Positions 236 through 21,038 of a stretch of DNA of 34,466 nt are shown one piece after another (positions within the stretch are counted from its first letter, which is position 1; each line of letters opens with the position of its first letter). This DNA comes from Chelativorans sp. (lineage in GTDB: Bacteria; Pseudomonadota; Alphaproteobacteria; Rhizobiales; Rhizobiaceae): contig NZ_JAPSLH010000038.1 in assembly GCF_031180965.1 (NCBI RefSeq), positions 1 to 34,466 on the forward strand. Direction: 5' to 3'. A program made the position numbers and the translations under genes. The notes under the pieces are model-generated. The model ran no database searches. It had not been told where the DNA came from and worked only from the letters and a program-made list of their open reading frames with translations.

Positions 236-312
<77 letters not shown>

Positions 313-702: not shown

Positions 703-779
703 GGCCCCGTAGCTCAGCCGGATAGAGCACCGGCCTTCTAAGCCGATGGTCGCAGGTTCGAGTCCTGCCGGGGTCGCCA
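703..779 (+). tRNA. tRNA-Arg (anticodon UCU)
   Basis: Acceptor stem GGCCCCG (703-709) pairs CGGGGTC (769-775, one G-T pair), followed by discriminator G and encoded CCA (777-779). The anticodon loop CTTCTAA at 735-741 gives anticodon TCT at 737-739. The T-arm GCAGGTTCGAGTCCTGC is canonical; the outermost anticodon-stem pair is a C-A mismatch. It is the last clear host gene before the accessory DNA, which makes its 3' half a plausible phage attachment site. Confidence 0.95.
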
Positions 780-6863: not shown

Positions 6864-7538
6864 CTAGACCCCGGCAACCTCGTTTCCGGATGCAATGCGG
6901 TGAATTCTGCGCACCTGATTCGCAGGGATATCGACGTCACCCGGGGGGTTCAGCTTGCCGATCCTCACGACCGGGCCGTTCAGTCTGAGGTGACCGATCA
7001 TAGCCTCGGGGCCGTGGTCAGGGTCGTGTTCGAATTCCACGACGACGGAATCTCCGATTTTCGGCTTCACATTCGGCGTGACGAAACGGATGTCGCCGGG
7101 CTTGTGTTCCGGGAACATGGAGTCGTTGATGATCACGATGGCGTAGACGCCTTTGTGTCGCCGGAGGCCGCGCGGTAGCGGAGCATGGCCGATCGAATTG
7201 TCGAAAAGCTGAAATGCCCCGGCGTAGGAGCCGGCAGCGACGGCCTTAATCTCAACCTCGTGGTCGGCGTAGATGAGTTCGCCGGGCACGCTCTGGGCCG
7301 CATCTGATTTGCTGCCGCCGTCCTCTCCCGTAAGCAGCCACTGCTCGGTGGTCTTGAGCGCCCTTGCCAGCCCAGCGAGATTGTTGCCGCGGGGGAGGCC
7401 GGCTCCAGGTTTCAGCATTTTGCCGACGGCCTCGGGGGACAGCCCAGCCTCCAAAGAGGCCGCTCGATAGGACAGGCCGAGCTCGGCAATGCGCGTTCTC
7501 ACGCGCATCTGAAAGTCGGAAGGGAGAGGCTGATCCAT
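6864..7538 (-). CDS. CI-like phage repressor, helix-turn-helix plus S24 (LexA-like) domain
   Basis: 224 residues. The N-terminal XRE-type helix-turn-helix covers about residues 10-70 (YRAASLEAGLSPEAVGKML). The C-terminal S24 domain has NDSMFPEHKPGD (Ser140 as nucleophile) and VKPKIGDSVVVEFEH. A LexA-like cleavage motif VAAG (102-103) is visible, but the position of the catalytic Lys (LexA VKRL) reads IGHL, with Gly at 182. It should maintain lysogeny by binding the GGAA-N4-TTCC operators. ATG at 7538 is chosen: the N-terminal domain starts here, and the start lies one base from the 18-bp operator palindrome with no ribosome site, so the mRNA is probably leaderless, as for lambda cI. An upstream reading to 7637 runs through the operators and is rejected. 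Confidence 0.92.
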   Translation of the reverse strand: MDQPLPSDFQMRVRTRIAELGLSYRAASLEAGLSPEAVGKMLKPGAGLPRGNNLAGLARALKTTEQWLLTGEDGGSKSDAAQSVPGELIYADHEVEIKAVAAGSYAGAFQLFDNSIGHAPLPRGLRRHKGVYAIVIINDSMFPEHKPGDIRFVTPNVKPKIGDSVVVEFEHDPDHGPEAMIGHLRLNGPVVRIGKLNPPGDVDIPANQVRRIHRIASGNEVAGV

Positions 7539-7539
7539 T

Positions 7540-7557
7540 CGCGGAATATATTCCGCG
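7540..7557. promoter_or_regulatory. repressor operator OR3-like, perfect 18-bp palindrome
   Basis: CGCGGAATATATTCCGCG is a perfect palindrome with the core GGAA-N4-TTCC at 7543-7554. It covers the -10 of the repressor's own promoter, so binding here would autoregulate the repressor. Confidence 0.82.
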
Positions 7558-7573
7558 ACCGGCCCGGTATGAA
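7545..7573 (-). promoter_or_regulatory. predicted repressor maintenance promoter (PRM-like)
   Basis: Minus strand TTCATA (7568-7573), 17 bases, TATATT (7545-7550). The predicted start of transcription falls at about 7538, the A of the repressor ATG, giving a leaderless message. Confidence 0.5.
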
Positions 7574-7576
7574 GAC

Positions 7577-7588
7577 GGAAAAAATTCC
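7577..7588. promoter_or_regulatory. repressor operator OR2-like (GGAA-N4-TTCC)
   Basis: GGAAAAAATTCC, placed between the repressor promoter and the rightward promoter, immediately upstream of the rightward -35. Confidence 0.72.
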
Positions 7589-7589
7589 C

Positions 7590-7618
7590 TTGACGATGTG
7601 GAAATTGTTCCGCATCTT
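7590..7618 (+). promoter_or_regulatory. predicted rightward early promoter (PR-like)
   Basis: TTGACG (7590-7595), 17 bases, CATCTT (7613-7618). As in the left promoter, the -35 is TTGACG and an operator (7600-7611) fills the spacer. The predicted start of transcription is within 2-3 bases of the next ATG (7627), which has no ribosome site. Confidence 0.55.
7600..7611. promoter_or_regulatory. repressor operator OR1-like (GGAA-N4-TTCC)
   Basis: GGAAATTGTTCC followed by GC, lying in the spacer of the rightward promoter. It is spaced 23 bases from the copy at 7577-7588. Confidence 0.75.
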
Positions 7619-7626
7619 CTGTCGCC

Positions 7627-7881
7627 ATGATGCTCAAACAACAGCTCCTTCTGGTCAGCGATGCCTATTCAGCTCTTGTCGGGCTGAGCCGATCGCGCGT
7701 CTCCACGATCGTCCTCAATCGCGGCTCGACACTGGACGCGATCGCGCAGGGGCGCGCCGACATAACAACCGGCACCTTCGAAAAGGCGATGCTCTGGTTC
7801 TCGGAGAACTGGCCCGACGATAGCGCATGGCCGGCTGGCGTGGAGCGCCCCTGCCGCACGGAAGAGGACGCCGCCGCATGA
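7627..7881 (+). CDS. Cro-like / small helix-turn-helix regulator, first rightward gene
   Basis: 84 residues. A helical DNA-binding pattern is visible in SALVGLSRSRVSTIVLNRG followed by DAIAQGRADITTGTFEKAML and WFSENWP, a layout seen in short phage regulators of alphaproteobacteria. Divergent from the repressor, the product is positioned to act as the Cro counterpart on the shared operators; that role is inferred. Tandem ATGs at 7627 and 7630 leave the exact start open. No ribosome site precedes them, consistent with a leaderless transcript from the promoter at 7590-7618. The stop overlaps the next gene (ATGA). Confidence 0.8.
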   Translation: MMLKQQLLLVSDAYSALVGLSRSRVSTIVLNRGSTLDAIAQGRADITTGTFEKAMLWFSENWPDDSAWPAGVERPCRTEEDAAA

Positions 7882-8285
7882 GCATTCTCCGTTCCTCCCG
7901 CGACCGCACCTCCTCTCCAGTCGGAGATGCGGGGCTTGCCGCGCCTTTCGGCTTTCCCCCGGCGGAAGGCGCGGCCATTTTCTTTCGGCCGCCCGTGCAG
8001 CTTTCCGACGAGGCACTGACGATGCTTGCCGTTGTCTGCGCGCATGACCGCATGTCGCCGGCCGATTTCCTCGCCCGCGCCATCTGCGCGCGGGCACAGG
8101 CGATCGGCCTGCCAGACCTTCTGCAGGGTAGGGAAGTGGCATCCCGCCTGGCTCATACCCAGGAAGCCGGCCGTTCGATTCGGCCCCCTGCAACCAGCAT
8201 AACCACCGAGCGACGCGACCAGGGCGGGGGCGGCCATCCGGCCGCTCCCGCATGCGCAAGCTCCCGTTGTGATGAAAGGAACTAA
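7878..8285 (+). CDS. hypothetical phage protein
   Basis: 135 residues, overlapping the Cro-like gene by ATGA. The central part (VQLSDEALTMLAVVCAHDRM, then SPADFLARAICARAQAIGLP) is helical and may be a ribbon-helix-helix-like or small helical domain. The first 35 and last 50 residues are low in complexity (Ser/Pro/Arg). No family recognised. Large opposite-strand frames across this region lack ribosome sites and family features and are treated as shadows. Confidence 0.6.
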   Translation: MSILRSSRDRTSSPVGDAGLAAPFGFPPAEGAAIFFRPPVQLSDEALTMLAVVCAHDRMSPADFLARAICARAQAIGLPDLLQGREVASRLAHTQEAGRSIRPPATSITTERRDQGGGGHPAAPACASSRCDERN

Positions 8286-8668: not shown

Positions 8669-9166
8669 ATGATCCCCAACGCCAATGCCAACCACTTCCG
8701 CATCAAGGCCGCGCAGCGCGACTTGATCGCCGCTGCCGGCGGCATCGAGCGTGCGGCCGAGATCGCCTCCTACGGCAAGAGCACCGTGGGGCGATGGTTC
8801 AACGCCGACTCGCCGGAGATCATGCCGGTGGACGCGGCCCTGCGCCTGGAAGAGGAAACCGGGCGCTATGACTTTCTCACCGCGCTTGCCGCCGTGCGCG
8901 GCCGCAAGCTGGCGGACGGAGAGGGCAAGGGCGCCGAGACCGGCGACATCATGGCGCGGTTTTCCGACGTGATGCGCCAGGTGGGTGAGCTTTCGCAATC
9001 GGCGGCCGTGGCCTTCGCCGACGGCAAGATAACGCCGACCGAGGCGACGGCGATGATCGACAAGCCGGCATCGCTCCTAATCGAGGCGGCCAACGAACTG
9101 CGCCGCGCCGCCGCCACCGTGCGCGGGGCGGGTGGCTTCAGCGTCGTGACGGGCGGGGCAGGCTGA
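8669..9166 (+). CDS. CII-like phage regulatory protein
   Basis: 165 residues. The N-terminal half carries FRIKAAQRDLIAAAGGIERA, SYGKSTVGRWFNADSPEIMP and VDAALRLEEETG, a helix-turn-helix arrangement (sensing 'G-K-S-T-V-x-R-W') seen in CII-like and related regulators of alphaproteobacterial phages. The C-terminal half is a predicted helical hairpin, likely for oligomerisation. It probably binds DNA in the early region; the target is unknown. GAGGAAA lies upstream of the ATG; the stop overlaps the next ATG (TGATG). Confidence 0.72.
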   Translation: MIPNANANHFRIKAAQRDLIAAAGGIERAAEIASYGKSTVGRWFNADSPEIMPVDAALRLEEETGRYDFLTALAAVRGRKLADGEGKGAETGDIMARFSDVMRQVGELSQSAAVAFADGKITPTEATAMIDKPASLLIEAANELRRAAATVRGAGGFSVVTGGAG

Positions 9167-9735
9167 TGCGACCCGGCGAACAAGTCTGGTCGGAGCCGGA
9201 ACTGAGCCTCGCCGCCCGGCTGTGGAAGGCGGGCTTCAGCGGAGGGGACATTGCCCGGCGCCTCGCGCAGGACCTTAACGCTTCCCGCTCGCGCTCCGCC
9301 GTCATCGGCCTGGTGCATCGGCGCCCCGAGCTTTTCGGGGGTGAGGCGAAGAAGTCAAAGAAGGGGCGCGCCAAAGCCCGGAGCGAAGCGGCCCAGAAAC
9401 CCGCGCCCAAGAAAAGGCAGCACCTGAACGCCGCAAACATTGCCGGAAAGCGCGGAGCCCGAGCCTTCGACCCGGGATTTCAGGCGCCGATCGCGCCAAG
9501 TGAGGCGCGGGAATATGACGCCCGCAGCCGGCGTGTTCCCCTGACGCGTCTGGGAGTGGGCTGCAAGTTCCCCGTCAATGATGCGGCTGTGGGCGAGGAG
9601 CATCTGTTCTGCGGCCACCCGGCGAAGGCCGGCTCGCCCTACTGCGCCCACCATTCCCTGCGCGCCAGCGTCGGGCGGGTGCGGCTTCCGGAGATCGCGG
9701 AAGTCCACCGGGCCTTTGCCGGGAGGCGGAGATGA
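9166..9735 (+). CDS. GcrA-like cell-cycle regulator homologue
   Basis: 189 residues with the two-part layout of GcrA. The N-terminal helix-turn-helix (WSEPELSLAARLWKAGFSGG, DIARRL, SRSAVIGLVHR; about residues 8-52) is followed by a basic linker. The C-terminal segment is GVGCKFPVND ... LFCGHPAKAGSPYCAHH (C133, C149, C160, H162). In alphaproteobacteria GcrA binds the sigma-70 holoenzyme and methylated GANTC promoters to time cell-cycle genes. A phage copy could redirect host transcription to DNA replication or drive phage promoters; that role is inferred. It is larger than a minimal GcrA because of the Lys/Ala-rich linker. It overlaps its neighbours at both ends. Confidence 0.88.
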   Translation: MRPGEQVWSEPELSLAARLWKAGFSGGDIARRLAQDLNASRSRSAVIGLVHRRPELFGGEAKKSKKGRAKARSEAAQKPAPKKRQHLNAANIAGKRGARAFDPGFQAPIAPSEAREYDARSRRVPLTRLGVGCKFPVNDAAVGEEHLFCGHPAKAGSPYCAHHSLRASVGRVRLPEIAEVHRAFAGRRR

Positions 9736-10067
9736 GCGCGAAACCCGTTCCCATCACCATCTCCCTCCTGCCCAAGGCGCATCAGCGGCTTTTCGAGCTG
9801 GCCAAGGCGAAGGGCTACCGCCCCAGCGAGTATGCGCAGCTGCTGTTCGACGCCGCCTTCGCCGCGCGCGTGGGCCAGGAGCGGGGCATTCCCGCGAGCG
9901 ATGCCGAGCTCGACGAGCAGGTGCGTCTCGTCTTCGCCTGCGCCGGCCAGGGTTCCACGGCCGCGATCGCCAAGGCGACCGGGCTGCCGGAGGCGCGCGT
10001 CACCCGCGTGCTCGATGGATTGCGGGAACTGCGCCGGCGCTCCGGCGGACGGGGAGGGGCGGCATGA
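9732..10067 (+). CDS. hypothetical protein with C-terminal helix-turn-helix
   Basis: 111 residues. The N-terminus (VPITISLLPKAHQRLFELAK then YRPSEYAQLLFDAAF) looks like a ribbon-helix-helix domain. The C-terminus (STAAIAKATGLPEARVTRVL) is a recognisable helix-turn-helix. A two-domain DNA-binding protein is suggested; no family is named. ATGA overlap with the GcrA-like gene and with the next small gene. Confidence 0.75.
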   Translation: MSAKPVPITISLLPKAHQRLFELAKAKGYRPSEYAQLLFDAAFAARVGQERGIPASDAELDEQVRLVFACAGQGSTAAIAKATGLPEARVTRVLDGLRELRRRSGGRGGAA

Positions 10068-10165
10068 AGGGCCGGCCCGTGCACTCGCTCTTCGGAGCAT
10101 GCGCCGCAGGGCTCTTCATCGCCGCCCTCGCTCTGATGACGGCCTTTGCCGCAGGCGCCTTCTGA
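10064..10165 (+). CDS. 33-residue predicted membrane peptide
   Basis: The short basic start MKGRPVHSLFG is followed by one hydrophobic helix (ACAAGLFIAALALMTAFAAG). It is accepted because its ATG overlaps the upstream stop (ATGA at 10064-10067), GGGGAGGGG lies just upstream, and it fills the gap to the next gene. It is a single-pass inner-membrane peptide of unknown role. Confidence 0.55.
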   Translation: MKGRPVHSLFGACAAGLFIAALALMTAFAAGAF

Positions 10166-10194
10166 TGCCTCGCAAACCCAAAGGAGAAAAGGAC

Positions 10195-10881
10195 ATGCCG
10201 AACAGCGGAGAGAGCGGGAAGATCGTCGGCCGCAATACGGTGTCCGGGCGCCAGCTCATGGACTTCATCGAGCGGATCGAACGCATCCGCGAGGCGAAGA
10301 AGCAGCTAGCCGAGGATGAGAAGCTCGTTTTCGCCGAGCTTAAGGCCTCCGGCTTCAACGCGCCTACGGTGCGCAACGTGCTCAAGAGGCGCGCCGCCAA
10401 GCCGGCCGATGTTGAGGAGGCGGAGCAGATGCTTGACATGTATCTGCACGCCATCGGCATGGCGAACGAGGCGCCGCTCTTCCGCGCGATCGGCATGATG
10501 AGCGTCGACCTTTCGGCGCGCGAACAGGTGATCGAGGCGTTCAAGCAGCTCGTGCCCATCGAGGGCGAAATCATCGTGAAAATCGGCAAGCAGCCGGTGC
10601 GGCTCTGGCGCGACGAGAGCGGAACCGCGCAGGCCGAAGACGTGATCGAGAAGCCGAAGCCCGCAGCAAAGCCGGCGGCGAGCGGCCTGCCGGAACGGCC
10701 CAGGCGGGAGGTGCCCGATGTGGACGCGGCCGGAGCGCGTGAGCTGGGCGCTAAAGCCTATCGGGAGAATCAGCCGATCACCACCAATCCATTTCCTTGG
10801 GATGACAAACGGCGCGGCGAATTTGACGCGGGCTGGCGCGCAGCGAGCGGCACGGACGGCATGGGCCCGGAAGAAGACTGA
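10195..10881 (+). CDS. GapR-like (DUF2312) protein with C-terminal RMF/CrpP-like segment
   Basis: 228 residues. Residues about 17-88 match GapR/DUF2312: LMDFIERIERIREAKKQLAE, then VFAELKASGFNAPTVRNVLK, and a helix ending MLDMYLHAIGM. GapR is an alphaproteobacterial nucleoid protein that clamps overtwisted DNA and helps replication. An uncharacterised strand-rich middle (VPIEGEIIVKIGKQPVRLWR) follows. The last 45 residues (GARELGAKAYRENQ..NPFPWDDKRRGEFDAGWRAA) resemble the ribosome-modulation-factor/CrpP-like motif in which a G-x-x-A-Y helix is followed by NP(F/Y)...R..F..GW. ATG 10195 is preceded by AAAGGAG; an ATG at 10165 touching the prior stop is possible but has a poorer site. The three-part architecture is unusual. 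Confidence 0.85.
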   Translation: MPNSGESGKIVGRNTVSGRQLMDFIERIERIREAKKQLAEDEKLVFAELKASGFNAPTVRNVLKRRAAKPADVEEAEQMLDMYLHAIGMANEAPLFRAIGMMSVDLSAREQVIEAFKQLVPIEGEIIVKIGKQPVRLWRDESGTAQAEDVIEKPKPAAKPAASGLPERPRREVPDVDAAGARELGAKAYRENQPITTNPFPWDDKRRGEFDAGWRAASGTDGMGPEED

Positions 10882-11840
10882 TGCCGCACAGCGCCCACAA
10901 TCTGGCGAGCTTCGGCGAAGTGCTGATGCCGGAGGAAGCGCAGGAGCCGATCCTGGCGAAGCCTGTTCGCGCGGCCTTGCTCGAATGGCTCACCGAGCTT
11001 TGGGCGGCAGAGGATCTGCGCGAGGTAGGGCTGGAACCGCGCAAGCGCGCACTTTTCACCGGCGCACCAGGAACCGGCAAGACGACGCTGGCGCACCACC
11101 TTTCGGCGCGTCTCGGCCTGCCCATGCTGGTGGTGCGCCCGGAGAAGGTTGTCTCCCGCTATATCGGCGCGTCCTCCGAAATGATCGGTGCCTTGTTCGA
11201 CCTGCTTCAGGGCGAAGAGAACCCGGTGTTCCTCTTTTTCGACGAGTTTGATTCCGTCGCCGCTTCGCGCATGGACGACAGTCACAACCAGGTGGGCGTC
11301 CAGGAGCATAATCACATCGTCAACACGCTTCTGGCGGCGTTCGACCGCTATGATGGCTTCATCGTCGCCGCGACGAACTACGGCAAGCGGATCGACGAAG
11401 CGATCTGGCGGCGGTTCGAAATCCACATAACGCTCGACCTGCCGGGCGACCATGAGCGCAGGCGCATCCTCGAGCGCTATTTCGCGCCCTTTCTGTTGCC
11501 TGACGACGCGCTGCGGACGCTGTCCGAGGCACTGGAGACCGCGACGCCGGCGCTGATGCGGTCGCTAGCCGAAAACATCAAACGGCAGATCGTCGTCGGG
11601 CCGAAGGCCGGGTGGGAAATGGACCGTGACGCGGTCATCAGCCGCGTGATCCAGACCGTGCAGCCGCACCCGGATGTTGGAAAGCCGCGCCTGTGGTCGC
11701 ACGGCATCAAGGACAAGGCTCTCGCCCATTTCCCCTGGCCGCTGCAGCGCAGCCTTGCCGAGTATCCGAGCACTGGCCGGACCGTTCAACAGGTTCCAGG
11801 AGAGGGCGCCGCCGTGCTGCCTCTCAGGAGGCCGGGATGA
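10881..11840 (+). CDS. AAA-family ATPase
   Basis: 319 residues with a complete AAA core: Walker A GAPGTGKTT (61-69), a pore-region RYIGASSEMIG, Walker B VFLFFDEFDS (116-124), sensor 1 VAATN (162-166), and Arg fingers in IWRRFEIHITLDLPGD (R177/R178). There is no protease or nuclease domain. It resembles the ATPase unit of classical AAA unfoldases and should act as a hexameric remodeler, perhaps on replication proteins; the substrate is not visible. The C-terminal 40 residues are probably unstructured. It starts at the A of the preceding TGA (TGATG) and ends overlapping the methyltransferase gene (ATGA). Confidence 0.9.
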   Translation: MPHSAHNLASFGEVLMPEEAQEPILAKPVRAALLEWLTELWAAEDLREVGLEPRKRALFTGAPGTGKTTLAHHLSARLGLPMLVVRPEKVVSRYIGASSEMIGALFDLLQGEENPVFLFFDEFDSVAASRMDDSHNQVGVQEHNHIVNTLLAAFDRYDGFIVAATNYGKRIDEAIWRRFEIHITLDLPGDHERRRILERYFAPFLLPDDALRTLSEALETATPALMRSLAENIKRQIVVGPKAGWEMDRDAVISRVIQTVQPHPDVGKPRLWSHGIKDKALAHFPWPLQRSLAEYPSTGRTVQQVPGEGAAVLPLRRPG

Positions 11841-12517
11841 CGCAATCGGCGCGCGGGCTATTCAGAGCGACGGGCAAGAAGAGCAAGCCCGTGCTGCAAC
11901 TCGCCATCGACGGCTCGATCAAGCGTGCCGATGGGTTGGAGCGCGAGCGTGACGAGTTCTACCCGACTCCTCCAGAACCGACGCGCGCCCTGCTCAGCGC
12001 GGAAGGCGAACGGCTGCGCGAATTTCCACTGCTATGGGAGCCCGCCGCCGGCGATGGCGCGATGGTGCGCGAACTAGAAAGGGCCGGCATTTCGGTCACA
12101 GCAAGCGATCTCGTCGATCGCGGGTGCGGCGCGCAAATCCGTTCATTTTACGACTTTGCCTGCGCGCCGGCGCCAGCGATCGTGACGAACCCGCCCTTTG
12201 CGGAATGCAACTGGCGCGACGGGCGCGGGCGCTGGATTTACCACGCACTTGATGTGATTGGCGTCGAATACATGGCGCTCCTCATGAGCTGGAGCTGGCC
12301 CGGCGCGGGCGGCTTGGCACCTCTCTGGCAAAAGCACAGGCCGGCTCGCGTGTACTTAATGCGCTGGAAGATCGACTTCACAGGGCAGGGCGCCCCGCCA
12401 ATGCTGAACGGCTGGTTCGTGTGGGACCGGAAGCATGCCGGCGAGACCGTGCTGCGCATGCTCGACAGAACCGACCCGGCGCAAAGCGAGATGTTCGGGG
12501 AGGGGGATCGTGTATAG
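11837..12517 (+). CDS. SAM-dependent DNA N6-adenine methyltransferase-like protein
   Basis: 226 residues. FYPTPPEPTRALL (41-53) precedes motif I EPAAGDGAMV (68-77); ASDL (89-92) is motif II; and IVTNPPFAE (115-123) is the catalytic motif IV of N6-adenine/N4-cytosine DNA methyltransferases. The order I then IV is the gamma/beta-like layout. There is no obvious separate target-recognition domain and no restriction partner nearby, so it looks like an orphan phage methylase that protects or marks phage DNA. Specificity is unknown. A GANTC target would tie it to the GcrA-like gene upstream but cannot be read from the sequence. Confidence 0.85.
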   Translation: MTQSARGLFRATGKKSKPVLQLAIDGSIKRADGLERERDEFYPTPPEPTRALLSAEGERLREFPLLWEPAAGDGAMVRELERAGISVTASDLVDRGCGAQIRSFYDFACAPAPAIVTNPPFAECNWRDGRGRWIYHALDVIGVEYMALLMSWSWPGAGGLAPLWQKHRPARVYLMRWKIDFTGQGAPPMLNGWFVWDRKHAGETVLRMLDRTDPAQSEMFGEGDRV

Positions 12518-15527: not shown

Positions 15528-15782
15528 CTACGGCGCGAGGATGTCTGCTTCTTCGGCCGCCCTGACGAACGCCTCACGCGCCGCGTCCGCGTCGCCCCTG
15601 CCCATGACAGCGTCGAGGCAGGCATTGCAGGCGGCGCGGTGTGCCGGCCCTGGCACGGCGTGCTTCGGCCAGTGGCGCGTCAGCACCTCCAGCGCCTTGG
15701 CCGGATCTCCGACGAGCCATCGCGTCGCGCCGTGACGGCCGGCGAAGACGGTGACGGGCTCTTTCCATGCTGGAATCGCCAT
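15528..15782 (-). CDS. DUF982 family protein
   Basis: 84 residues: MAIPAWKEPVTVFAGRHGAT, KALEVLTRHWPKHAVPGPAH, RAACNACLDAVMGRGDADAA and REAFVRAAEEADILAP, a full match to the DUF982 pattern (a W-P motif, an A-C-L-D-A helix and an A-R/A-F-x-x-A-A helix). GAGG lies 5 bases before ATG 15782. It is divergent from the replication gene 38 bases away. Confidence 0.87.
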   Translation of the reverse strand: MAIPAWKEPVTVFAGRHGATRWLVGDPAKALEVLTRHWPKHAVPGPAHRAACNACLDAVMGRGDADAAREAFVRAAEEADILAP

Positions 15783-15820
15783 GCGCCTCAACGCGGGCCG
15801 GCAGGGGAGGTTGCAGGGCC

Positions 15821-17083
15821 ATGAGCGCGCGCCTCCTCGGCCTGGGTTTCGGCTGCGACATGGGAACGCCGCACCGCAAGCTCGTGCTTCTGAAATTGAT
15901 CGACGCCTGCGAGGACGACGGGAGCCGCATCTTCCCGGCCGTGGCGACGATCGCGCGCGCGGCGCAATGTTCCGAACGGCAGGTGCAGCGAGAGCTCGCC
16001 ACGTTCGTTTCCGTCGGGCTGCTGGCGGTGGTGCGCGAGGGCGGCAAGGGGCGCGGCTCGACCCGCGAATACCGCCTGAACGTGACGATGCTGCGCGAGA
16101 TCGAAGATGCCGGCTGGAGCGCGGTGACGGCCGGCGCGGGACCGGAGCCCGACGAGGCTAAGGGTGACACCCAGTCACCCTTAGAGGGCGCGGCTAAGGG
16201 TGACAGCGGCGACACGCTTAGGGTGACAGCGGCGACGGTTAAGGGTGACAAGCTGAGTCACCCAACCCCTCCATACCCCTCCATAGACCCCTCCGAAGAG
16301 AGAGAGGCGCGCGCGAGCGAGCAGGAAGAACCCGAAAACCTGGACGGGGAGGAGCAGGGCGCTTCTGCCGACGACCCGGCGAAGTTCGAGAAACGGGTGA
16401 AGAAGATCGCCGCCGATAACGACTGGCCGGGCTGGGCGAACTCCTCCACGAGCTGGACCGTGGCGCAGTTCGCCAGGCTGACCGACGCCGAGCGGGCCGA
16501 GGCGGAGCGGCGGGCGCCGCACTACATCGCCCTGACCGGCAGAAAGGCGCTCTCGCTCGGGACCTATTTCGCCGACCGCAAATGGCGGGACTTGCCGGAG
16601 ACGGAGAAGGCAGCGCCCGCGGCGGTGGAGGCGGCGCCCTTCGGCAAGCTGTGGCAGGCGGCGCGCACGAAACACCTTCTGCTCGGGCCGACGCTGCGGG
16701 CGGACCTGACGGCCTTCCAGCGCAGGCTCATTCAGGAGAGACACGCCGACGAGGCGGAGCTGCGCCGGCAGCACCAGGCGAAGACCGGATGGCCGGGCAT
16801 CAACCGCCTGCACGAGCTCGCCTCCTACGGGAAGGGCGTGGTGGTGGCGCCGGAGCTGGAGCGGCTTGCGGAGCTGATGGAGCCGGTGCGCGTCAACTCC
16901 GAGCGGTGGGAAGAATGGCGGCTGGAGCACGAGCTGCGCGGCTGGCCCTGGCTGCCCGACCCCGGAAAGCACGAATGGGTCTACTTCCCGCGCGGCGGAC
17001 CGGCGGGGCTGACGGAATTCGAGGCGGCGGTGAAGGGCGAGGAAAAGGCGGATGATGGCGGTGGACGCAAAGCAGCTGAATGA
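15821..17083 (+). CDS. phage replication initiator-like protein (helix-turn-helix, O-like)
   Basis: 420 residues. Residues about 10-90 form a winged-helix DNA-binding domain like those of phage and plasmid replication initiators (PHRKLVLLKLIDACEDDGSR, FPAVATIARAAQCSERQVQR, ELATFVSVGLLAVVREGG). A low-complexity Gly/Asp/Thr stretch (about 115-165) is encoded by iteron-like repeats. The C-terminal half has Trp-rich helical segments (WPGWANSSTSWTVAQFARL ... YFADRKWRDLP ... GWPWLPDPGKHEW) common in replication-region proteins of these phages. It should bind the internal iterons and load the host replisome, by analogy with lambda O. ATG 15821 is chosen at the domain start after GGGGAGG; the stop overlaps the NusG-like gene by 32 bases. 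Confidence 0.8.
   Translation: MSARLLGLGFGCDMGTPHRKLVLLKLIDACEDDGSRIFPAVATIARAAQCSERQVQRELATFVSVGLLAVVREGGKGRGSTREYRLNVTMLREIEDAGWSAVTAGAGPEPDEAKGDTQSPLEGAAKGDSGDTLRVTAATVKGDKLSHPTPPYPSIDPSEEREARASEQEEPENLDGEEQGASADDPAKFEKRVKKIAADNDWPGWANSSTSWTVAQFARLTDAERAEAERRAPHYIALTGRKALSLGTYFADRKWRDLPETEKAAPAAVEAAPFGKLWQAARTKHLLLGPTLRADLTAFQRRLIQERHADEAELRRQHQAKTGWPGINRLHELASYGKGVVVAPELERLAELMEPVRVNSERWEEWRLEHELRGWPWLPDPGKHEWVYFPRGGPAGLTEFEAAVKGEEKADDGGGRKAAE
16159..16263. repeat. iteron array inside the replication gene (candidate phage origin)
   Basis: Core TAAGGGTGAC occurs directly at 16159, 16195, 16218 (one mismatch, TTAGGGTGAC) and 16240. Inverted copies are GTCACCCTTA (16174-16183) and GTCACCC (16257-16263). 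The first pair makes a perfect 11-bp dyad, CTAAGGGTGAC / GTCACCCTTAG. Three direct copies are spaced 23 and 22 bases apart, and two share the extended 19-base unit ending AGCGGCGAC. Confidence 0.72.
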
Positions 17084-17699
17084 AGCGAAGGCGATCAACC
17101 TCGACCGTGCGATCGAGGCCGGGCGCAAGGCGCAGGAGCAGGCGCGTCTTCAGGCAAGACGGCTCTCGGCGGCTGCAGGCAGCGAGAAGGGCGAGAAGCG
17201 CTGGTATGTGCTGCGCATCGCGCACCGCTCGGAAAGGGCTGTTGCGGCGGATCTCGACGCCGCCGGGCTCGAGGCGTGGGCACCGACGAAAACCATCTGG
17301 CGTGCTGTTTTCCACAGCAAAAAGCGCCGTCGGGCGGAGAATCCGATCTTCCGCGGATATGTCTTCGTCCGGTCCGTACCCTGTGATGAGGCATGGGTGG
17401 GGCTGCTGCGCGTGAAGGGTGTGGCGGCGATCCTCGGCAACGGCACGCGGCCGGTTCACGTGCCGGACGAAAAGATGAGCGCCCTCATGGGCTTGGTGGT
17501 CTCGGGAGCGTTCGACGAGAAGAAGAACGGCCGCCCTTACAAGATCGGCGAGAAGGTGTGGATCAAGGATGGTCCGTTTGCGAGCTTTCCCTGCGTCATC
17601 GAGGGTTACGTGAAATCGCGCGGGGTGAGGGTGCTCGCATCGCTGTTCGGGCGCCGCGTTCCGCTGGAGGTGACTCTTGCGCAGGTCGAGGGAGCATAG
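17052..17699 (+). CDS. NusG-like transcription factor (probable late antiterminator)
   Basis: 215 residues. A charged helical extension (1-48) leads to an NGN domain (KRWYVLRIAHRSERAVAADL at 49-68, then EAWAPT, KRRRAENPIFRGYVFVR at 91-107). A KOW domain follows (YKIGEKVWIKDGPFASFPCV at 163-182 and RVLASLFGRRVPLEVTLAQV). NusG proteins bind the RNA polymerase clamp; specialised paralogues act as operon-specific antiterminators. Position between replication and packaging genes suggests the Q role. It starts inside the end of the initiator gene; ATG at 17052 or 17055. It is larger and more basic at the N-terminus than housekeeping NusG. Confidence 0.9.
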   Translation: MMAVDAKQLNEAKAINLDRAIEAGRKAQEQARLQARRLSAAAGSEKGEKRWYVLRIAHRSERAVAADLDAAGLEAWAPTKTIWRAVFHSKKRRRAENPIFRGYVFVRSVPCDEAWVGLLRVKGVAAILGNGTRPVHVPDEKMSALMGLVVSGAFDEKKNGRPYKIGEKVWIKDGPFASFPCVIEGYVKSRGVRVLASLFGRRVPLEVTLAQVEGA

Positions 17700-18837: not shown

Positions 18838-19323
18838 ATGGACAAGATTTTCGACCTATTCGGCCATCCCGTTCGGGAGGGTTTTGGGACGAGGGGCCGC
18901 CCTCCCTACGAGCCGACCGAAAAAGACCGCAATAAAGTCAAGCTGTTGCTCGCCCTCGGCTGGACGATCGGCCGCATCGCCAACGCGCTCGACGTCTCTC
19001 CGGCCACGCTGAAGCGCTATTTTAGAGCCGAGCTCAAGCAGAGGGACGCGATGCGGGACAGGCTCGACGCGCGGCGTTTGGAGATCGCGATGGAGCAGGC
19101 GAACGCCGGCAACGTCGCGGCCCTCAAGGAGCTCGGCAAGATGATCGAGCGGTCGGATCTCATGCTTGTCGATGCGAAGCTGCGCGAGGCTCAGGCGAAC
19201 GGCGGTGCCGACGCCAAGCCGAAGCTCGGGAAGAAGGAATCAGCCCGGGAGGCGGCCAAGACTGCCGGGCAGGGCAGCGATTGGGGCAACGATATCCTGC
19301 CCGGCATTCAAGGCGTGCACTGA
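18838..19323 (+). CDS. terminase small subunit-like protein
   Basis: 161 residues. Residues 19-63 (GRGRPPYEPT-like opening, KDRNKVKLLLALGWTIGRIA, LDVSPATLKRYFRAEL) form a helix-turn-helix. Residues 70-105 (MRDRLDARRLEIAMEQANAG then VAALKELGKMI) form the helical oligomerisation part expected of small terminases. It should recognise the packaging site and recruit the large subunit. It follows the candidate cos region and ends 2 bases before the large-terminase ATG. The assignment rests on fold and position rather than on a diagnostic motif. Confidence 0.82.
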   Translation: MDKIFDLFGHPVREGFGTRGRPPYEPTEKDRNKVKLLLALGWTIGRIANALDVSPATLKRYFRAELKQRDAMRDRLDARRLEIAMEQANAGNVAALKELGKMIERSDLMLVDAKLREAQANGGADAKPKLGKKESAREAAKTAGQGSDWGNDILPGIQGVH

Positions 19324-19325
19324 CG

Positions 19326-21038
19326 ATGGACACAGCCTGGGTTCCCGCCTCGGCTTGGTCGACGGCGGTGCCGGACTGGAAGGAGCGGATCCGGGAGAAG
19401 CGTTCGCTCATCCCGGATCTGCCTCTCTTCGACCCGGTCGCCGAAAAGGCCCTGCGCATCTTCAAGCGCCTCCGCGTGCCGGACATCATCGGCAACCCCA
19501 CCTATGGCGAGGTGTGCGGCGAGTGGGTGTTCGACCTCGTCCGCGTCATCTTCGGCAGCTACGACCCGGAGACGAAGCGCCGCGCGCTGCGCGAGTTCTT
19601 CCTCCTGGTTCCGAAGAAAAACGGCAAGTCCTCGATCGCCGCGGCCATCATCGTAACGGCCGCGCTGTTGAATGAGAGGCCCGAAGCAGAGCTGCTGTTG
19701 ATCGCGCCGACGAAGCAGATCGCGGACATCGCCTTCAAGCAGGCCGCGGGCATCATCCGCCTGGACGAGGCGCTTTCGGCGCTGTTCCAGGTCCAGGATC
19801 ACCTGAAGAAGATCACGCATCTCAATACGCTCGCGGCAATCCTGGTCAAGGCGGCCGCCGCGGATGTGATCACGGGATCGAAGGCGACATACATCCTGAT
19901 CGACGAGACGCATGTGTTTGCGTCCATGGCGAAGGCCGCGGACATCTTCGTGGAGATCCGAGGTTCACTTGCGGCGCGTCCGGACGGCTTCCTTCTGCAG
20001 ATCACGACACAATCGAAAACGCCGCCGGCCGGCGTATTCAAGGCGGAGCTGCAGAAGGCGAGGGACGTGCGGGATGGCAAGTTCGAGTTCCCGATGCTTG
20101 CGGTCCTCTACGAACTGCCTCCGGAAGATGCCGTCGACGGCGGATGGATGCGGCAGGAAACCTGGGGCCTGGTCAATCCGAACCTCAATCGATCCGTCGA
20201 CGAGAGCTACCTTGCCGGCGAGATCGCGACCGCGGAGAGGGAGGGGCCTGAGAAACTGGCACTGATCGCATCCCAGCACTTCAACGTGGAAATCGGCCTC
20301 GGCCTTCACGCGGACCGCTGGGCGGGCGCGCTGTATTGGGAAGGGGCGAAGCTGGACGGTATCACGCTCGACCGGCTCATCGGCGAGTGTGACGTAGCGG
20401 TCGTGGGGATAGACGGCGGCGGCCTTGACGATCTGATGGCTGTAGCAGTCATAGGCCGGCACAGGCAGACCCGGCATTGGTGGCATTGGGCGCGCGCCTG
20501 GGCGCACCAGGACGTGTTCGACCGCAGGAAGGAAATCGCTCCGCGGCTGCGCGACTTCCAGCGCGATGGCGACCTCGTGGTGTGCGAGGAAACCGACCAG
20601 GATGTGATCGAGATCGCCGACATATGCGAACGGCTCTTCCTGGCCGGGCTGCTTCCGGAGAAGGCCGGAATCGGACTTGATGCATATGGAGTCGCCACAC
20701 TCCTCGACGCGCTCGCGGAACGCGAGATGGCCGGCGATCTCACGATGGCCGTGGGCCAGGGCTGGAAACTGCAGTCGGCGGTGACGACCCTCCCGCGCAA
20801 GCTGAAGGACCGGACCCTGAGGCACGGGGGCCAACGCCTCATGGCCTGGGCCGCCGGCAATGCCAAGACGGAGCTCAGAGGCAGCAACTACATCGTGACG
20901 AAGCAGGCTGCCGGCGCGTCCAAAATCGACCCGCTCATGGCGACCTTCAACGCGGCAATTCTGATGTTCCTCAATCCGGAGCCTTCGTCGGCCGGAAATA
21001 TGGACGGCTTCTTCAAAACCTTGGCAGGTGCGGCGTGA
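19326..21038 (+). CDS. terL: terminase large subunit (packaging ATPase-nuclease)
   Basis: 570 residues. ATPase domain: Walker A-like FLLVPKKNGKSS (92-103), Walker B TYILIDETH (188-196) and a coupling motif near QITTQSK. RNase H-like nuclease domain: GIDGGGLDDLMAVAVI with the first metal-binding Asp, VVCEETDQD, and a C-terminal KIDPLMATFNA acidic site. This is the HK97/Terminase_1-type motor that translocates DNA into proheads and cuts it. ATG 19326 begins the conserved WVPASAW start; earlier in-frame ATG 19281 lies inside the small subunit gene. The stop overlaps the portal GTG. Confidence 0.96.
   Translation: MDTAWVPASAWSTAVPDWKERIREKRSLIPDLPLFDPVAEKALRIFKRLRVPDIIGNPTYGEVCGEWVFDLVRVIFGSYDPETKRRALREFFLLVPKKNGKSSIAAAIIVTAALLNERPEAELLLIAPTKQIADIAFKQAAGIIRLDEALSALFQVQDHLKKITHLNTLAAILVKAAAADVITGSKATYILIDETHVFASMAKAADIFVEIRGSLAARPDGFLLQITTQSKTPPAGVFKAELQKARDVRDGKFEFPMLAVLYELPPEDAVDGGWMRQETWGLVNPNLNRSVDESYLAGEIATAEREGPEKLALIASQHFNVEIGLGLHADRWAGALYWEGAKLDGITLDRLIGECDVAVVGIDGGGLDDLMAVAVIGRHRQTRHWWHWARAWAHQDVFDRRKEIAPRLRDFQRDGDLVVCEETDQDVIEIADICERLFLAGLLPEKAGIGLDAYGVATLLDALAEREMAGDLTMAVGQGWKLQSAVTTLPRKLKDRTLRHGGQRLMAWAAGNAKTELRGSNYIVTKQAAGASKIDPLMATFNAAILMFLNPEPSSAGNMDGFFKTLAGAA

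Follow-up and report, generated by a model that had tools for sequence, protein, structure and literature searches.

A mosaic locus with a GapR-AAA+ ATPase pair, a methylase slot and an optional GcrA-like gene in the early operon of a Chelativorans phage contig

In this work we describe the early operon of a phage found in an assembly of Chelativorans sp. (GCF_031180965.1; 4.37 Mb, 64 contigs). The window analysed is the complete contig C64 of 34,466 bases, which is a phage as seen from its repressor, CII, replication, terminase, portal, head and tail genes. Comparison with related loci shows that the region is a mosaic, composed of a gene pair encoding a long GapR-like protein (GapR-long) and an AAA+ ATPase, an adjoining methylase slot, and an optional gene for a GcrA-like protein, which is at times cut to its sigma-binding half. 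GANTC is the site of the cellular methylase CcrM, and the genes of the operon may form two linked sub-modules providing the phage with a GANTC writer and reader of its own. We put the probability of this reading at roughly 0.45.

The first sub-module would be a regulatory block of CII, the GcrA-like protein and the small protein orf3. In this block the C-terminal half of the GcrA-like protein would bind the host sigma-70 factor, and RNA polymerase would be steered to promoters with methylated GANTC. The second, a replication block, would comprise GapR-long, the ATPase and the methylase. GapR would clamp overtwisted DNA in front of phage forks and polymerases, the ATPase would load or remodel the GapR complex on DNA, and the methylase would restore GANTC methylation on phage DNA that replicates too quickly for the host's CcrM, whose activity is limited by the cell cycle. 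A phage equipped with writer and reader would be less dependent on the cell-cycle stage of its host. If writer, reader and DNA-topology protein do cooperate, these phages would represent a natural, transplantable alphaproteobacterial cell-cycle circuit and would allow a simple test of whether the sigma-70 function of GcrA is separable from methylation.

An earlier reading of the sequence alone had placed homologues of GcrA, GapR, an AAA ATPase and an adenine methylase at 9166-12517, and judged by their profile scores (Table 1) all four family identifications are well above chance. Its description of overlapped early genes holds for most of the run, in which adjacent open reading frames (ORFs) overlap by 1-4 bases, the sole exception being a gap of about 100 bases between orf3 and GapR-long. 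It overlooked the CII-like gene at the start of the run and the approximately 138 residues that GapR-long carries beyond GapR length.

The GapR-long and AAA+ ATPase pair and the methylase slot

Fifteen distinct relatives of the locus were compared; labels such as L003 denote fetched DNA stretches of related phages or prophages. Eleven of them were found through the ATPase (L003, L012-L016, L194-L198) and four only through GapR-long (L100-L103), while the GapR-long matches L097-L099 and L104 were dropped as repeats of L012, L013, L015 and L014. GapR-long and the ATPase occur together in all 15, with GapR-long upstream on the same strand, either directly or at most 0.9 kb away. GapR-long lies upstream in 11/11 loci found through the ATPase; the four loci found only through GapR-long test the presence of the ATPase instead (4/4). 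Conversely, the ATPase adjoins GapR-long in all eight loci found through GapR-long. The GapR-long match in L014 spans two reading frames. Among 385 genomes drawn evenly across the class, only the window's own contained the ATPase at E <= 1e-40.

According to an alignment of 17 sequences, GapR-long consists of a GapR DNA-binding domain, a middle domain and a tail. Solved GapR chains are matched with a best E of 2.3e-12, and the NCBIfam equivalog model NF052541, which spans about 88 residues, gives 51.6 bits, below its cut-off of 140. The Pfam family of ribosome modulation factor (RMF, PF04957) matches 6 of the 11 tails of GapR-long relatives (best E 3.3e-4); the window's own tail gave no RMF match and no PDB match at E <= 10.

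The classic AAA features Walker A, Walker B and second region of homology (WRRF) are present in 16/16 aligned ATPases. The best named relative is IetA, although the alignment to the NCBIfam model NF042959 (IetA) begins at profile position 84 and scores 148.2 bits, below the cut-off of 510. The ATPase had been counted among host cell-cycle regulator homologues, which we ruled out, as its nearest named family is IetA, not a cell-cycle protein, and it pairs with GapR-long. With IetA as best named family, the ATPase could also act against or instead of the host's IetAS defence system, as a decoy or relic of it. We regard this as very unlikely, given the low model score, the tie to GapR-long instead, and the lack of a match to the IetS protease among the ten neighbouring proteins scanned (the remaining window proteins were scanned in part). 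In L166 (11830-13956) the ATPase gene has an apparent intein-like insertion inside Walker A, and the C-terminal tail of its product resembles the GapR-long tail.

From the sequences we infer a contact between GapR-long and the ATPase. To our knowledge, no ATPase partner of cellular GapR has been described, and the pair would provide GapR with a candidate. GapR-long might alternatively work in late transcription, as proposed for T4 DsbA, which is reported to be homologous to GapR and possibly brings polymerase to late promoters (PMC7824862; papers are cited by PMC number). This appears improbable, as the GapR-long gene is located in the early operon upstream of the replication genes.

The window's methylase has the motif NPPF and the S-adenosylmethionine-binding motif EPAAGDGAM, with no evident separate target-recognition domain. 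Within its group (phrog_799), NPP followed by F, Y or W is found in 33/33 aligned members and motif I, searched with a loose pattern, in 30/33. No Pfam family matched at E <= 0.1, so that the enzyme falls outside CcrM's family PF01555 (N6_N4_Mtase), and the PDB search gave no match at E <= 1. At E <= 1e-25 the methylase was present in 3 of the 385 genomes. Its identity is 67.6% to the POI1126 enzyme and 72.6% to the AmM-1 enzyme (over 82% of its length). GANTC is given as the target of the viral group including the AmM-1 and Pben1 enzymes (PMC6536676). Partial protection from HinfI was reported for Phi2LM21_p21 and full protection for Phi3LM21_p21 in PMC5537653, which also cites older GANTC findings on PhiLM21_p027 and on three enzymes of Paracoccus prophages. 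The window enzyme is accordingly a predicted GANTC N6-methyladenine (m6A) methylase, a prediction because it shares just 32.8% identity with the Phi2LM21 enzyme.

In 11/15 relatives the GapR-AAA pair has a methylase gene as its direct neighbour or separated from it by one small ORF. This slot is occupied by a phrog_799 enzyme in L014, L100, L194 (62.5% identity to L014) and, upstream of the pair, L196. An MT-A70 enzyme is found in L012, L013, L103, L195 and L197 (Pfam 47-79 bits), in L198 (83% identity to L195) and in L016 (own profile, E 5e-154). The four relatives with no methylase in the slot are L015 (DUF5131 next), L101 (GcrA next), L102, and L003 with a methylase 2.4 kb further on. The first 170-190 residues of the MT-A70 proteins of L012, L013 and L197 are 57-68% identical to the phrog_799 protein of L014, and their catalytic parts belong to different, unrelated families. 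This common N-terminal domain is not found on the window's methylase; a ParB-like N-terminus characterises the MT-A70 proteins of L103, L195, L198 and P1 (vB_MseS-P1, an inducible phage of Mesorhizobium). Two unrelated catalytic domains in one slot suggest that selection keeps adenine methylation or the N-terminal domain which some of the proteins share.

Phages commonly carry solitary methylases, which often have a protective role. The enzyme could therefore shield phage DNA from host restriction and have no cell-cycle role, its place beside the GapR-AAA pair reflecting early expression only. The two unrelated families in the slot fit this explanation, as does their distribution in a terminase-anchored set (80 loci fetched; our own profiles were applied to the 39 that show the early region, some of them near repeats). 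Ten of the 39 have the phrog_799 type (one weak), five the MT-A70 type and none both, a mutual exclusion that is not significant overall (Fisher P 0.30) and has a P of 0.045 in the 12 loci with CII. Since tested relatives methylate GANTC, the host's regulatory site (PMC5537653), we consider restriction protection possible, yet rather unlikely.

The GcrA-like protein and its association with the methylase

The GcrA-like protein aligns to solved Caulobacter GcrA (7ye1, residues 8-165) and to the GcrA that the host encodes on contig C28 (31% identity) with both halves of GcrA (PMC7403470) present and an insertion of five residues before the RSAVIG stretch. With 50.2 bits for the NCBIfam equivalog NF050816, below the cut-off of 280, it is a homologue and not the cellular equivalog. 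The C..C..C..H motif is conserved in 15/15 aligned GcrAs including the window's, and binding of sigma-70 is predicted. A tblastn search against phage records gave no match at E <= 1e-3. The host in addition encodes GapR on contig C42 and, on C52, a methylase with DPPY (PF01555, 235.5 bits), a CcrM candidate which we take to be CcrM-like. Together with the relatives of the locus, these three host genes point to an alphaproteobacterial host.

Several findings weigh against a joint writer-reader system. The GcrA gene is optional: it was found near the locus at E <= 1e-3 in 5/15 relatives (whole-record search and Pfam), of which only L015 (28.6 bits) and L101 (32.3 bits) exceed the Pfam cut-off of 26.9, with L196 at 25.0 bits, L197 (62 residues) at 25.9 and L014 at 18.9 (E 3e-5). 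The GcrAs of L014 (/L292), L197 and P1 (gp15, 106 residues, 18.0 bits, labelled GcrA by its depositors) are syntenic and, with inferred start codons and scores below the cut-off, lack the DNA-binding half. Counts of GcrA genes rely on Pfam or on profiles made from alignments of members, among them P1 gp15 with its score below the Pfam cut-off. GcrA occurs in 3 of the 39 terminase-anchored loci (one weak, one with 26.2 Pfam bits). Of the 80 methylase-anchored contigs fetched, 50 were examined with Pfam, and 9 of these have GcrA over its cut-off; by our own profile GcrA is present in 14 of 80 loci, two of these being repeats. The difference is not significant, neither like for like (14/80 against 3/39, Fisher P 0.18) nor with unlike methods (9/50 by Pfam against 3/39 by our own profile, P 0.22). 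Among the best 80 of 252 viral stretches encoding GcrA relatives, the phrog_799-type methylase lies within 8 kb in 12, six of them weak. As for the writer, the nearest enzymes (POI1126, AmM-1) are not reported as tested in the accessible text of PMC6536676 and PMC5537653, and the MT-A70 relatives, aligned for seven loci and P1 with L016 left out, have DPEW, DPPH or DPAW, not the usual DPPW, so that their activity is putative. The GapR of Bradyrhizobium phage ppBeUSDA76-1 (L005) has the middle domain without tail or ATPase, and P1 has a short GapR without ATPase. Finally, GANTC is depleted in the window, with 55 sites against 88 expected from a highest-order Markov model (174 from a first-order one), and likewise in P1, AmM-1, Pben1 and yong2.

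The comparative search for co-occurrence of the four genes, as suggested by the sequence-only reading, did not bear out a fixed module, which we ruled out because GcrA is facultative in relatives; a significant GcrA-methylase association was likewise rejected. What stands is the idea that the phage imitates the host circuit, although not as one co-inherited four-gene system. The homologues share an operon, the host has GcrA, GapR and a CcrM-like methylase, and imitation of CcrM and GcrA is plausible because GANTC specificity has been published for the phage group to which the methylase belongs. A phage-borne writer next to a reader is plausible as well.

The shortened GcrAs would also fit a protein that appropriates sigma-70 without reading methylation, its C-terminal half binding region 2 and displacing host GcrA or redirecting polymerase to phage promoters. 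The relatives with only the sigma-binding half occupy the same slot, Pfam recognises only the C-terminal part of GcrA in L015 and L196, and the C..C..C..H motif is invariant. We nevertheless view this explanation as doubtful, given that the DNA-binding half is retained in the window's protein, L008, L009 and others, and that the three short GcrAs score below the cut-off with inferred starts. Methylation reading is, however, unlikely to be the sole selected function of GcrA-like proteins, because the sigma-binding half is all that remains in three syntenic phages.

Finally, the genes might have no joint function and be accessory genes, independent of one another, at a hotspot within mosaic early regions. 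Most of the terminase-anchored loci lack GcrA, and CII is joined there by the methylase alone, with orf3, or with GapR; GapR is present in 5 of the 39 and the ATPase in none. This scenario, which we hold to be rather unlikely, is opposed by the GapR-AAA pairing, by different catalytic domains on a common N-terminal domain in one slot, and by a gene order that recurs in distant relatives. The order CII-GcrA-orf3-GapR-AAA-methylase is found again in L014/L292 and L197, there with the C-terminal half of GcrA only, and P1 has CII-GcrA-orf3-GapR-ParB-MT-A70. Among the loci found through GcrA, L008 and L009 have CII-GcrA-orf3-methylase with no GapR or ATPase in view, and L140, L162 and L166 have the GapR-AAA pair nearby.

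GANTC sites and the junction after the nusG-like gene

Clustering of GANTC within single genomes was rejected for the window (best 1-kb cluster, P 0.50), P1 (0.49), AmM-1 (0.92) and yong2 (0.98); for Pben1 the best cluster has a P of 0.04. Three of the window's sites lie inside tRNA genes. Sixteen palindromic words were compared around the nusG-like stop codon (-4 to +40), and GANTC shows the strongest enrichment among them: 27 loci, 10 of them with a site, hold 11 GANTC where 1.56 are expected (P 8e-7). A second set of 21 further loci, from other contigs of related phages, has 13 sites against 1.23 expected, again in 10 loci (P 7e-10); it retains the near-identical L270/L271 and L273/L274, and L204 and L209 were dropped as repeats. 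Both P values are overstated because the interval was chosen after the first set and the phages are related. The sites by the stop are located at 17672 and 17710 in the window and at 15940, 15954 and 16069 in L199. Part of the enrichment may reflect RNA constraint, because a paired hairpin about 100-160 bases further on holds one more GANTC.

A more far-reaching version of the writer-reader proposal would see a portable CcrM-GcrA epigenetic clock, in which the GANTC writer and sigma-70 reader of alphaproteobacterial temperate phages, tied to a GapR-AAA replication complex, would use methylated GANTC sites directly behind the nusG-like gene to gate the switch from the early to the late phase. 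We regard this version as quite improbable.

Thirteen related phages have this conserved hairpin after their nusG-like gene (L208:8779-8838, L199:16040-16095 and 11 more). It measures about 60 nucleotides within about 170 conserved ones, and its model has no match in the window. The outer stem is 97.8% paired and covariation is modest, with four double-change pairs (reached by 82 of 500 shuffles) and a score reached by 9 of 500. Run over 71 loci, the model recovered the 13 seeds it was built from (E <= 1e-16), with no other match below E 0.03, and in the 6 of 13 loci scanned, Rfam gave no match at the hairpin at gathering scores. The hairpin is possibly an antitermination or late-leader element. 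A second conserved pattern (GATTTG, GCGGACC, then ACTCG with CCGG), which the hairpin model does not match, was observed at the early-late junction after the nusG-like stop in L026, L030, L034, L045, L076, L079 and L080.

Contig layout and comparison with known systems

The features of the window are compiled in Table 1. The phage is probably temperate, because repressor and CII are present; the left-end ORFs scanned include no recognisable integrase. In some relatives orf3 sits, by synteny, between GcrA or CII and GapR or the methylase.

Table 1. Features of the window, with the evidence for each assignment
Feature	Position	Strand	Evidence
tRNA-Pro	236-312		
tRNA-Arg	703-779		
Repressor	6864-7637	-	family matches
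tRNA-Met, within early region, adjoins operon	8122-8196		
CII-like regulator, opens operon run	8669..9166	+	PF06892 38.7 bits (cut-off 26); phrog_101 87 bits
GcrA-like, 189 residues: DNA-binding N-terminal half, sigma-interacting C-terminal half (C..C..C..H)	9166..9735	+	PF07750 68.7 bits (cut-off 26.9); 7ye1 E 3.5e-7
orf3, small protein	9732..10067	+	synteny; no family over any cut-off
GapR-long: GapR DNA-binding domain, middle domain, RMF-like C-terminal tail	10165..10881 (likely start)	+	PF10073 (GapR_DNA-bd) 74.3 bits (cut-off 22.6)
AAA+ ATPase, IetA-like, partner of GapR-long	10881..11840	+	PF00004 86.8 bits (cut-off 21.2); PADLOC IetA 174.1 bits
Solitary DNA methyltransferase, 226 residues, NPPF	11837..12517	+	phrog_799 173.6 bits
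Replication initiation (O-like) protein, early region downstream of operon run	15767..17083	+	phrog_270 122.6 bits
NusG/RfaH-like antiterminator, ahead of terminase genes	17052..17699	+	phrog_6386 128.9 bits; TIGR00922 71.4 bits (below cut-off 135.7)
Probable small terminase	18838-19323		position only
Large terminase	19281-21038		family matches
Portal, protease, head and tail genes			family matches

Phage GcrA (PMC3556154, cited in PMC9437464) and phage GANTC methylases are, each singly, already known, and a 'GcrA cell cycle regulator' appears in a table of phiLM21-like prophages (PMC12429752). The combination of GcrA with a GANTC methylase, the GapR-AAA pair, the methylase domain swap and the mini-GcrAs were not found in the literature searched, mostly non-subscription and accessible in part.

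The phiCbK-like Caulobacter phages likewise carry a PF07750 protein, proposed to alter the replication state of the host. Their genomes measure 205-280 kb, and the accessible text of PMC3556154 names no neighbouring GANTC methylase or GapR (DUF2312: 0 occurrences). The solitary CcrM-like methylases of PhiLM21, Phi2LM21, Phi3LM21 and Paracoccus prophages are also NPPF/Y/W m6A enzymes near a replication module, for which mimicry of CcrM has already been proposed (PMC5537653, PMC6536676). The window enzyme is nearer to those of AmM-1 and POI1126, and 'GcrA' is missing from the accessible main text of both papers.

The closest layout is that of vB_MseS-P1 (PP232116; PMC11409702), which has the same CII-GcrA-orf3-GapR order and the same early and late arrangement. 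It differs in its GcrA, reduced to the C-terminal half, its short GapR, a ParB replacing the ATPase and an MT-A70 methylase; the word 'GcrA' is not found in the accessible main text of PMC11409702. Eleven records of Rhodobacter capsulatus phages match both GapR-long and the ATPase. In RcKemmy, for example, GapR-long is directly followed by the ATPase (about 55% identity); the phage differs in that no GcrA was found in its record and an MT-A70-like methylase follows 2.4 kb further on. With IetAS, finally, the window shares an AAA ATPase similar to IetA, which here was seen without a protease partner and has GapR-long as its partner instead.

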